The translations under genes were made by a program, and so were the position numbers. Positions 1-6,008 of a DNA stretch of 6,008 nucleotides are shown piece after piece. Numbering within the stretch: position 1 is the first letter of the stretch; each line of letters begins with the position of its first letter. Where the stretch lies: assembly GCA_016839405.1 (NCBI GenBank), contig JAEOUJ010000149.1:1-6008 (forward strand), in the 5' to 3' direction. Origin of the DNA: Candidatus Gerdarchaeota archaeon. GTDB lineage: Archaea > Asgardarchaeota > Heimdallarchaeia > JABLTI01. A model generated the notes under the pieces. That model saw only the letters and a program-made list of their open reading frames with translations. It was not told where the DNA came from and ran no database searches.

Positions 1-649
1 ATGCACCAACACCTTTTGGACCATAGAGTTTATGTGAGCTTAAAGAAAGCAGATCAACTCCTAAATCCTTTACATTTAGAGGTATTTTACCAACAGTTTG
101 AACAGCATCTGTATGAAAAATAGCTCCTGCATCATGAGTGATTTCAGCTAGCTCCTTAATTGGTTCTATTGTTCCTATTTCATTATTGGCATGCATGATT
201 GAAACTAAACCAGTATCTTTTGTTATAGCTTTTTTCAGATTTTCAGGATCTACTAAACCAAAATTATTAACAGGAAGATAGGTAACTTTTATGCCTTGGG
301 TCTCTAAAAATTCTGCTGTTCTTAAAACAGCTGGGTGCTCTATAACAGATGTAATAAGGTGTTTTTTCTTATTTTTTTTGGAAAGTAAAAATCCTTTTAA
401 TGCGGTATTGTCAGCTTCTGTACCGCCAGAATTAAAAATAATCTCTCTTGATTGTTCTGCACCAATTAATTTAGCTACATGTTCTCGAGCATCAATCATA
501 GCTTGAGCTGCATTTCGACCTAGTTCATACATCTGTGATGCATTGCCATATTCTTCACCAAAGAATTTTAGCATTTCTTTTTTAACTTCTGGATCAACTG
601 CTGTAGTTGCTCCATGATCCATATAAATTCGCATTGCTTCTTGGGTCAT
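1..649 (-). CDS. Cysteine desulfurase, NifS/IscS family (partial, N-terminal half)
   Basis: This is a PLP-dependent enzyme that removes sulfur from L-cysteine, giving alanine and an enzyme persulfide used for Fe-S cluster assembly and tRNA thiolation in the cytoplasm. The 216 residues visible match the family throughout: an N-terminal [14 protein letters not shown] motif, NSGGTEADN at 73-81, VIEHPAV with the cofactor-stacking His105, HANNEIGT at 153-160, HTDAVQ with Asp181 and Gln184, and [10 protein letters not shown] with the PLP Schiff-base Lys207. These sit at +1 relative to the corresponding E. coli IscS residues, so the length is normal. The start at 649 places YMD near the N-terminus as usual and follows a weak AGGTAAGG-like ribosome site. 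An in-frame ATG at 670 would add seven residues, and one at 634 would remove five. The C-terminal part with the catalytic cysteine loop lies outside the window, so the NifS, IscS or SufS subtype and activity cannot be settled. It is transcribed divergently from the HMG-CoA reductase gene. Confidence 0.93.
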
Positions 650-2268: not shown

Positions 2269-4515
2269 ATGAAATCTAGTAAAAGAGCATTAACAGCTTC
2301 TATTCTTATGTTTATTGTAGGTATATCATTAATACCAGCATATGCCTTAGCATGGCAAGGTGAAGATAGTGGTATCTATGATATTGATGATAGACCAAAA
2401 TACAACACTCATCAATGGTTGGCTTGGGAAGCTGTTGAAATGTTCCCCGATTCACAAGTATCTTGGATTACCGAGAACTTATTGGCTTTTTGGCAAGGTG
2501 TAGAAGCTCCCTATAATGGTGATGCTGCAACAGAAGTAGGTTTAAATGCAAGTCATTATGGGCTTGTTGAGGGCAGTGCATTGATTCTTGATGCTACTGG
2601 AACAACTGTTACTAATGATTCTCTAGCAACACTTGCTTTAGCAGAATATGATAAATTAATAATAGAATTATCAAAAGATGATACTGATTATAAGCTCGCA
2701 GCTTTTTATGCAGGTGCAATGAGTCATTATGTATCTCAAGCTGGTATTTATAAAGCAATTTGGAATGAAACTCTTTGGGGTACATTCAATACAGCTGAAT
2801 GGATTATTTTTGAATCAGCAATTGAGAATGGTCTCACAGTGTTAAATTACAATCCTCCAACATTTAATTACAATTTTGAGGATATGAGTATATATTATAA
2901 TACTTTCTTTAGCTTAATTCCAACAGAAATCGCTAGAGAAGATGCTTATAATGCAACTATTAATTTAGCTAAAAGCATTCATCCACTTGCTCAAAGCATT
3001 CATGATGATCTTAATGCTTCAATTACTGAAGCAGATCAATGGGAAGCAACTTATTTTGAAAATGTAGAAGATTGCTTAACATGGTCAGTTGAAGCAATAT
3101 ACGCAGCATTAAGTAAAGCAATGCATGAAGTTGAATGGCGATATTTAACCATCCCTGAATCATCGTTCACATATGATAATTATACACATCATTTAGAATT
3201 ACTAGAATTTGAAGTAACATATACTGAAGATTCTGTTATTTACATATTAAATGATAGTATGGCAACTTTAGCAGAAGCTTGGTATGTTTATTATGATGAA
3301 GATGATGAACCTGATTCATTATCCTCTGAAAAGATTGATTTAGAATATAATGATGTTAGTGAAAAATGGTTCCTTGGAGAAGAGTTAGCACCAAATACAA
3401 TTGCTTATGCTAATCACTCAATATTATATCGTTTTGATATGGATCGAGCTGCACCAACATGGAGTAATTTATCCTCAGAAAAATTCTATGTTGATTATTA
3501 TAATTGTTCAATTAATAGCGTAGAAGTAGCTTATTCCCCAGCCTATAGAACATTGAGTATTGATAACGTAACAATAACTTGTTATGATTTGCCAGAAATT
3601 GGTACAATACAAGACTATGAAGTCGAATCAGCTGAATGGATTCTTTACCAAAAAGGAACTGGTTCATCACAAACAGGTCATGCTGTTGGTTTCCCAGTCA
3701 CTGATACAGCAAATCAACTTGTAAGAGGTCTTTTAACCTTTAATTCAACTAATGGTACAACTTGGTACTCACACAATAATGATATTGGATTAGTATTTAC
3801 TCAAACTAATTCTGAAATGTATGTTGTAATAAGAGTTAGGCTAATTATTCCATCAGGATTCTGGAGAACTACTATTCTGGGTGGAACGGAGCCAGAATTT
3901 ATACCTTACTTGCAATTAGATAGTGATTATTACTTCAAAACAAAAGACCATCAAATAACTATATCAAAACCGAAAGTAGATTATTTTGAAGAATATGATC
4001 CTGTTGATGACATAACAAAGAAATACATAAGTGCTTATAATATAACTGCCTTTAGTGACTACAATGATACTGAATTAAATTATTATGAAATAGTTGAAAA
4101 AACAGTATACGGTGATGACCGAAGAGAAAGAAGATGGAAAGTATTTCTATGGGATGGTATTCAGTCTCGTTTAACTGGTGATTTACAATGGAATGATACT
4201 GCTATACCTGAATTAGGGTTAACAGGAACTTGGTACATTGAACGTGTAGAAGTAACTTTCTTACCTGATAATCAATATTACTTATCAGCTAAGATTGTAA
4301 ATATGAATGTAAACTTCACAACCTCGCCATGGGGACCAGAATCAGATTTGTTCGAAATTAAAAATCCTTTACCTGTGATATATTACATTCTCCCCGAATT
4401 CTTCTTGGCAGGATTTGTAGTATTCTTCGGTTGGTTAGCATGGTATAGACCACGTAAGAAACGATTAATGATAGAAAGAGAACGTCAAGAAAAGCTAGAA
4501 AAAGTTTATGACTAA
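2269..4515 (+). CDS. Membrane-anchored surface protein with zinc-dependent phospholipase C-like domain
   Basis: The 748-aa protein is predicted to be exported and anchored at the cell surface. Residues 1-28 form a signal peptide (basic KSSKR, hydrophobic core, AYALA then Trp29). A mature N-terminus starting with Trp followed by NTHQWLAWEAVEMF (46-59) resembles bacterial zinc-dependent phospholipase C, in which Trp1 and a following His bind zinc. His96 in ASHYG and His153 in AAFYAGAMSHY match two further ligand sites. However, where the family has the HYxxD...PxHA pattern this protein has HYVSQAGIYKAI, so the expected Asp is Gln157 and the next His is Ala163. Activity is therefore doubtful. 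Helical sequence continues to about 290. Residues 300-690 are beta-rich, perhaps several Ig-like modules. A transmembrane helix spans about 703-726, followed by a 22-residue charged cytoplasmic tail. Seventeen N-glycosylation sequons are spread over the ectodomain. The domain assignment is by eye and moderate. The substrate and role are unknown. It is flanked by its own promoter and terminator. Confidence 0.7.
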   Translation: MKSSKRALTASILMFIVGISLIPAYALAWQGEDSGIYDIDDRPKYNTHQWLAWEAVEMFPDSQVSWITENLLAFWQGVEAPYNGDAATEVGLNASHYGLVEGSALILDATGTTVTNDSLATLALAEYDKLIIELSKDDTDYKLAAFYAGAMSHYVSQAGIYKAIWNETLWGTFNTAEWIIFESAIENGLTVLNYNPPTFNYNFEDMSIYYNTFFSLIPTEIAREDAYNATINLAKSIHPLAQSIHDDLNASITEADQWEATYFENVEDCLTWSVEAIYAALSKAMHEVEWRYLTIPESSFTYDNYTHHLELLEFEVTYTEDSVIYILNDSMATLAEAWYVYYDEDDEPDSLSSEKIDLEYNDVSEKWFLGEELAPNTIAYANHSILYRFDMDRAAPTWSNLSSEKFYVDYYNCSINSVEVAYSPAYRTLSIDNVTITCYDLPEIGTIQDYEVESAEWILYQKGTGSSQTGHAVGFPVTDTANQLVRGLLTFNSTNGTTWYSHNNDIGLVFTQTNSEMYVVIRVRLIIPSGFWRTTILGGTEPEFIPYLQLDSDYYFKTKDHQITISKPKVDYFEEYDPVDDITKKYISAYNITAFSDYNDTELNYYEIVEKTVYGDDRRERRWKVFLWDGIQSRLTGDLQWNDTAIPELGLTGTWYIERVEVTFLPDNQYYLSAKIVNMNVNFTTSPWGPESDLFEIKNPLPVIYYILPEFFLAGFVVFFGWLAWYRPRKKRLMIERERQEKLEKVYD

Positions 4516-4612: not shown

Positions 4613-4645
4613 ATGTATTATTACTAATTTGTGAGTTATAATAAG

Positions 4646-6008
4646 ATGATGCACTCAATGAAATCTAAAAGTATGTTTTCCATTACAATTCTTCTAATAT
4701 GTATAACTATGATTTCCTCCGTTTCATTACAAGCTTTGCCTAGTGATGATTATTTCTTTAAAATAAGGATTCTAAGTAGTAGTGAAAGTCAAACATATTC
4801 TCTTTCAAATTTTTTAAGCCAAGAACTAAAAAGGATTCGAATTGATTCGTTAGTTATTACATATCCAGATTCATCTTTTCAATCTGCTGTGGTTTCTAAG
4901 GAATTTGATTTGGTATTAATAGACATAGATTGGCCAACGCTTGATGTGGATTCTACAGCTCTTTTTTCTAAGGCTGGGGCAGCAAATTATTGGGGTGTAG
5001 ATGATCAAACAACATCAGGTCAAGAAAATGAGGAATTACTTAAGGATGGATTAGTAGAAATTAATGAAAGTGCACGTGTTGATATTTACCGTTATTGGCA
5101 AGAGAATCTTATGAATAATGTATTGCCAATAATACCCCTCTATAATAAAATCAATACATATATTTCTTGGGAAACTTTAACTGGGTGGGACCATGAAGAA
5201 GGAATAATTGCTTCTTTACCATATATGGAATGGACTTCGCCACATCCTAATCAAGATAACACAAGTGTTTTTATTGATTATACAGAGAAATGGGAAATAT
5301 TGAATCCTTTATATTTAAAGGATAATTACTTTATTCAATTAGTTTCAGAACCATTGTTAAGATTTGATAAATCAAATAATCCTTATGGTGTATTAGCTGA
5401 AAGTTGGAGTTTTAATACAAATAGAACAATATTGACTTTTAATTTAAGAGAAGATATTTATTGGCAACCAGATATTGATGGGCTCTATACTGATTATTTA
5501 TTTACTGCTGATGATGTTATTTTTTCAGTTCAAATGTACCAAAATGTATCTACAATTGGCACTTTATTCCGATGGATAGCTGGGTATGAAAAAGAGAATG
5601 ACTATACTGTACATTTTTATATAGATGGTGATTCTTCTACACCTGGTTTACAACCTTATGCTCCAGCATTACAAGAATTCACTAGATTAATAATCCCAGA
5701 GCATTACTTGAATGTTAGTGTAGGAATAGATGGACTTCCAGATACATCGCATGAAAATTGGGAAAAATATGGTGTATATGGATTAGGTACAGGTATGTAT
5801 TATTTTGTTGAATATAAAGAAGGAGTTGAAACTAAATTTTATAGAAATGAAAATTGGTGGGGTACTACTTCAGATCCTTTTAATGATGATTTAGATATAG
5901 CCGAATATCGAATTAGTATCAAGGAAAATTGGGATTCAACAGAAATTAAAATAAATTTTGATGATGGTAATGTGGATATAGTTAAAAACTACGATATAAA
6001 CTTTGAAG
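4646..6008 (+). CDS. Secreted family 5 solute-binding protein, apparently permuted (partial, runs off the window)
   Basis: This is an extracellular binding protein of the peptide/oligopeptide (DppA/OppA-like) ABC transporter type; 454 residues are visible and no stop is reached. Residues 1-30 are a signal peptide (KSKS, hydrophobic 11-27, SLQA before LP) with no lipobox cysteine. Residues 36-181 resemble the normal C-terminal lobe: a strand-helix region with LSQELKRIRID, then EFDLVLIDIDW (86-96), a FSKAGAANYWG segment, and PIIPLYNKINTYISW (161-175) ending in TGW. After a linker, residues 216-454 resemble the normal N-terminal part: WEILNPLY, LVSEPLLRFD, GVLAESWSF, LTFNLREDIYW, FTADDVIFSVQMY (286-298), YGLGTGMYYFVEY (378-390), FYRNENWWG. 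The domain order is therefore reversed relative to ordinary members. Starts at 4649, 4658 (MKSKS, a clean signal peptide) or GTG 4631 are also possible. Permease and ATPase genes, if linked, lie downstream. The ligand cannot be predicted. Confidence 0.85.
   Translation, partial: MMHSMKSKSMFSITILLICITMISSVSLQALPSDDYFFKIRILSSSESQTYSLSNFLSQELKRIRIDSLVITYPDSSFQSAVVSKEFDLVLIDIDWPTLDVDSTALFSKAGAANYWGVDDQTTSGQENEELLKDGLVEINESARVDIYRYWQENLMNNVLPIIPLYNKINTYISWETLTGWDHEEGIIASLPYMEWTSPHPNQDNTSVFIDYTEKWEILNPLYLKDNYFIQLVSEPLLRFDKSNNPYGVLAESWSFNTNRTILTFNLREDIYWQPDIDGLYTDYLFTADDVIFSVQMYQNVSTIGTLFRWIAGYEKENDYTVHFYIDGDSSTPGLQPYAPALQEFTRLIIPEHYLNVSVGIDGLPDTSHENWEKYGVYGLGTGMYYFVEYKEGVETKFYRNENWWGTTSDPFNDDLDIAEYRISIKENWDSTEIKINFDDGNVDIVKNYDINFE

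Follow-up and report, generated by a model that had tools for sequence, protein, structure and literature searches.

The window (the whole stretch of 6,008 nucleotides analysed here, from contig JAEOUJ010000149.1 of Candidatus Gerdarchaeota archaeon) ends inside a gene for a solute-binding protein of family 5 (SBP_bac_5, PF00496), whose segments follow each other in an unusual order. The open frame runs on the forward strand from 4646 to the window end (4646..6008, 454 residues) and continues past it; an in-frame GTG at 4631 would lengthen it to 459 residues. Ordinary members of the family read, from start to end, as segments A, B and C (order ABC). Here, a hydrophobic N-terminal stretch that looks, from the sequence alone, like a signal peptide (residues 1-31, 4646..4738) is followed by segment C, the usual closing piece (residues about 36-196, 4751..5233), which was placed by profile hidden Markov models, by profile matches to chains of the PDB and by a structure model. 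Then comes TSPHPNQDN (residues 197-205, 5234..5260, with approximate borders), where the two old chain ends would be joined, as extrapolated from the profiles of proteins with the same order. It leads into segment A, the ordinary opening part (residues about 206-409, 5261..5872; Pfam, hidden Markov models and predicted structure), and into the start of segment B (residues 420-454, 5903..6007), identified by a Pfam match up to residue 453 of the 459-residue frame and by the segments of relatives. The window itself displays C, A and the beginning of B. Its own gene end lies outside and is therefore inferred from relatives, in which the remainder of B and then a membrane tail follow, at positions beyond the window's end.

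Segment order in the window protein and its family

The first-pass annotation had proposed that residues 36-181 carry the motifs that usually close a family-5 protein and the later part those that open it, which left a circular permutation or a partial tandem fusion as possible readings. The motifs it quoted do stand in those places, and the profiles concur. Only residues 251-453 of the 459-residue frame matched PF00496 (profile positions 2-176; 74.1 bits versus a curated cut-off of 32.4, the full-length relative P0004 scoring 122.5), since with rotated segments the Pfam model covers only part of such proteins. An alignment of 65 ordinary family-5 proteins was then cut into an N part and a C part, and the profile made from each was scored alone. 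The window protein's database copy, P0002 (439 amino acids, identical along its length), has the match of the C-terminal profile at residues 38-183 (E 7e-11) and that of the N-terminal profile at 225-407 (E 1.8e-29), which makes the order C-then-N. The same order was found in 64 of 68 family proteins (P0002-P0063 and P0071-P0076, the window's own P0002 included) and the opposite one in none; the other four lack one part and are fragments of 266-347 amino acids. All 65 ordinary proteins read N-then-C, but because they also built the profiles they are no independent control and show the direction of the method.

Finer profiles of A, B and C, for which 18 ordinary Asgard proteins joined the 65 bacterial ones, gave the order CAB in 61 of the 68 family proteins; three read CA, being cut short (P0002 among them), and four are AB fragments, these seven records having 266-452 amino acids. 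No second segment C occurs in any of the 61 proteins showing all three segments. The usual A-B-C order, which is typical of SBP_bac_5 but lies outside the Pfam definition, is thus replaced by C-A-B in the window family. A profile of the family (57 proteins) aligned to the ordinary profile written twice in a single alignment of 461 columns that spans the join (score 465), and to the single ordinary profile as two separate matches (scores 351 and 129), their order reversed. The relatives therefore show what defines a circular permutant: each segment occurs once, the order is rotated and homology is continuous across the join. The join is short, with a median of 8 residues (range 2-29, extrapolated from profile borders) in 42 CAB proteins of Asgard genomes. 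A 28-row profile of segment C matches PDB chains near their C-terminal ends, the best being 1xoc_A (358-506 of 520, E 5.4e-23).

Two full-length relatives, P0003 and P0004 (596 and 594 amino acids), are 75% identical to the window protein along its whole length. In both, the chain closes with the helix AKQYMLKAGY, or a sequence very like it, and then a membrane tail; no further C-terminal piece is present. P0003 ends in AKQYMLKAGYNPDT and P0004 in a near copy, followed by a tail modelled as one helix, which in P0004 would span residues 572-593 and is the single predicted membrane helix; the same model has a helix at residues 2-28, with low confidence at 24-33. On solved NikZ (4oet_A), the predicted structure covers residues 1-321 and segment C, folded alone, covers 320..494, each part being aligned by itself. 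The models suggest that the two parts together make up an ordinary binding protein, each supplying the half that the other lacks, with the fold of solved family-5 proteins. The matches listed for the window protein are all of family 5, though such a list, filled by one family, cannot exclude a Type I/cluster B fold.

Three cyclic orders in Asgard genomes

The census covered 59 genomes of the Asgard phylum, that of G001 (Heimdallarchaeota, source of the region L001); 42 had a match to PF00496. The regions fetched were picked for a top match or for an unusual range of profile positions, and the counts of orders must therefore not be taken as frequencies. We counted open frames of at least 200 amino acids with a segment at domain E <0.01. 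There were 114 such family-5 frames, from 39 genomes: 42 CAB, 34 ABC, 30 BCA and 8 partial, none with two full copies of any segment. The 18 Asgard proteins that helped build the profiles read ABC partly by construction; both orders were already present when the profiles of an earlier scan came from bacterial proteins only. CAB was found in 13 genomes and BCA in 10; G021 and G048 combine the two, and G048 has ABC as well. BCA is a second, different circular permutation of the same fold: a profile of 23 such proteins gave a single alignment with the doubled ordinary profile (494 columns, score 525). A search with these 23 proteins found 611 relatives, and the best 120 of the 611 all read BCA, their named taxa being all Thorarchaeota or Lokiarchaeota. 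The rotation seen in the window is common in Asgard archaea. Examples of BCA genes (L079:738-2630 on the forward strand, L085-L100 and others) are annotated merely as substrate-binding protein or dipeptide transport protein.

The genome G051 is a contig of 3,326,783 bases, about the whole stated genome, with 16 matches to PF00496. They fall in 11 intact genes, each CAB, in a broken gene near 1.68 Mb (two frames whose pieces follow the CAB order by profile position) and in one partial match near 3.29 Mb; no ABC gene was seen among them. Elsewhere, some family-5 frames are much longer (1349-2520 amino acids; L095:876-8435 on the reverse strand, L084, L102, L096 and L099, some cut by the fetched stretch), with one binding domain near the start and then a very long tail.

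We are highly confident that the window gene encodes a naturally circularly permuted solute-binding protein of family 5 (peptide/nickel type) of an Asgard archaeon. As the first-pass annotation observed, the window ends too early to decide: it stops within segment B, and alone it would also fit a truncated C-terminal lobe fused ahead of a complete second binding protein. Its own suggestion, to look downstream for a second FDL..DW and P.IPLY segment, could be followed in the relatives, which have no second segment C, as a permutation predicts. We find the permutation supported and the fusion very improbable because the 61 CAB proteins lack a second C (the remaining seven of the 68 being short records), P0003 and P0004 end after segment B and the membrane tail, and the tests with the doubled profile and the structure agree. 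An assembly or binning artefact could be suspected, since the records are mostly metagenome assemblies, but its probability is negligible with CAB in 61 of 68 proteins from several sources and with the 11 CAB genes of G051 on one contig of 3.33 Mb. Chance similarity of the motifs was set aside together with the fusion and the artefact.

The gene could also be a mosaic, with segment C from another binding protein than A and B, where a fusion followed by loss would mimic a permutation. Tandem arrays do exist (five BCA genes in L094), so swaps among copies are possible. Yet most frames have their best match within their own order class, both for A+B (CAB 40/42, ABC 32/34, BCA 30/30) and for C (41/42, 32/34 and 29/30), and for A+B as well as for C, L066 and L068, a related CAB/ABC pair, pick each other as best match. 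Recent swaps are disfavoured by this, an old one less so, and we consider a mosaic unlikely.

If the fold was permuted, how often did this happen? We built a tree of 131 rows (53 CAB) and a smaller one of 43 of those rows with a simpler model; both come from quick searches and contain long branches, and the constrained groups were named after inspecting the tree. In the larger tree CAB needs 6 changes, at least 3 of them forced by well-supported branches, and BCA needs 2. A single origin of CAB, with all 53 rows as one clade, was rejected (approximately unbiased test, p-AU 6.1e-53). In the smaller tree the two large CAB clades and two nested ABC rows can form one group (p 0.245); that group with L066 added was rejected (p 8.6e-68), as was the clade of L056 when the two ABC rows nested in it were left out (p 2.1e-5); the nested rows may be reversals. 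L066 and L068, both from G032, are sisters (support 99 in the Shimodaira-Hasegawa-like approximate likelihood ratio test, SH-aLRT). Hence there were several changes of order, and L066, a CAB gene, stands apart from the large CAB clades. Another pair of opposite order, L034 (ABC) and L056 (CAB), shares 11 identical residues, SPNTNPARNQW, right after the cut; the loop before them in L034 is DADNDGVYE, and a loop of this kind is absent from L068 and L016.

Natural circular permutations are usually regarded as rare single events. We lean slightly towards the view that rotation is a recurrent evolutionary route of Asgard peptide-binding proteins, with three orders sometimes in one genome, the B|C cut made more than once, the anchor shifted to another part of the Venus flytrap and the importer partner unchanged. 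The rotated genes may have arisen by fusion of tandem copies and subsequent trimming, since any three consecutive segments of ABCABC would give ABC, BCA or CAB. This route is only plausible, and no intermediate of it was seen among the Asgard frames examined. In L066 (1896-3662, reverse strand) the tail past segment B (AALTIAYSSD...) resembles, by eye, the start of an ordinary segment C and could be a relic of duplication. Two further CAB proteins in the Asgard part of the tree, P0072 and P0014, carry the metagenome names Thermotogota and Bathyarchaeia and are either misbinned or transferred.

Probable importer partners and membrane anchor

Do the rotated proteins still serve importers? We searched for permeases (PF00528) within 2 kb and for importer ATPases (oligo_HPY). 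A permease match was found for 9 of the 42 CAB genes and for none of the other 33. It lies downstream on the same strand in six cases (G032:C53, G032:C52, G054:C284, G019:C5, G021:C1 and G018:C26), with two oligo_HPY ATPases next, on the same strand, in G021:C1; it is divergent in three (G054:C431, G019:C10 and G048:C64). Five of 26 BCA genes lie less than 2 kb downstream of a permease on the same strand (G003:C33, G037:C27, G029:C56, G013:C211 and G048:C64), a count restricted to the genomes searched for permeases, which leaves out 4 BCA genes; for the BCA gene of G050:C1 the permease is 2.6 kb off. Because permeases adjoin these genes, ordinary importers are probably the partners of at least some rotated proteins. 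An importer role of the permuted protein is likely, and for the window copy we infer it.

The fold could instead be permuted in a protein that works outside transport, as a sensor or surface receptor. There is some basis for this reading: the window gene has HMG-CoA reductase and a 748-residue protein as neighbours (Pfam and open-frame reading), with no importer permease in the window or near its counterpart in G001, most CAB genes have no permease within 2 kb, and in G051, with 14 PF00528 and 4 oligo_HPY matches, none of these lies within 10 kb of the 11 CAB genes. However, binding proteins scattered away from a shared permease are known in other systems, and the permeases beside 9 CAB and 5 BCA genes point to importers. 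We regard a sensor or receptor as rather unlikely.

For an importer, the protein would work as follows. The chain starts with a hydrophobic leader; segment C, a joining stretch of about 10 residues, A, B and, in relatives, a hydrophobic tail follow. It would be exported and held by the tail on the outer face of the membrane, close on a small and probably peptidic ligand and pass this to an importer of the DppBCDF type. The chain is opened in the loop that follows the AKxxxxxAGY helix, which carries a DxDxDG stretch in some ordinary relatives. With the domain borders that we take to apply to OppA, both chain ends would have been transferred out of the first lobe into the second, which the anchor would therefore now hold.

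A hydrophobic stretch in the tail was found in 39 of 42 CAB, 29 of 30 BCA and 14 of 34 Asgard ABC proteins, a difference that is not separable from kinship. We thus do not claim a link between permutation and anchor: the raw counts (68/72 permuted vs 14/34 ordinary, Fisher p 3.8e-9) ignore kinship, and when it is allowed for there are 4 independent pairs, too few and with no direction. Several CAB proteins have a PGF-like motif directly before the tail helix. A PGF-CTERM sorting signal (PF18204) has little support, with one match below the cut-off in six scanned proteins (L051, E 0.013). Among five genomes searched, exosortase (PF09721) was found only in G032, not in G001, G051, G048 or G021.

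Known systems and the surroundings of the gene

The window family is homologous to SBP_bac_5/cluster C proteins (DppA, OppA, NikA, NikZ) over A, B and C, its two predicted halves match the same solved chains, and the genes of some relatives stand beside importer permeases; it differs in having CAB instead of ABC, with the chain ends elsewhere. A close parallel is TpMglB-2 (Tp0684), a naturally permuted bilobed binding protein of an ATP-binding cassette importer. The accessible part of its description (PMC4990184) presents it as a cluster B glucose-binding protein, "Type Ic / Cluster Bc," that still binds ligand and undergoes a change of shape; treponemes and Gram-positive bacteria have relatives of it, and its authors suggest a link with tethering. 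By this account it differs from the window protein in its fold class, the sugar-binding cluster B, and in the place of the cut. In the titles and abstract starts of the literature covered, which leaves out preprints and most subscription papers, we found no permuted family-5 protein and no permutation of an Asgard binding protein.

A large fold that one phylum uses in each of its three cyclic orders is a natural experiment on rewiring a protein without losing its fold. Related pairs of opposite order and permuted genes beside permeases make the origin of the permutation, its folding cost and the placement of ends and anchor for docking testable. Order-blind annotation conceals such cases.

Scans of the window for tRNA genes and Rfam families gave no matches, and one DNA motif of segment C occurs a single time in it. 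The database copy P0002 ends 15 residues short of the window frame (5963-6007). The 748-residue protein (2269-4515) has hydrophobic ends and no significant Pfam match; it has HMG-CoA reductase on one side and the binding protein on the other, as is also the case in L001.
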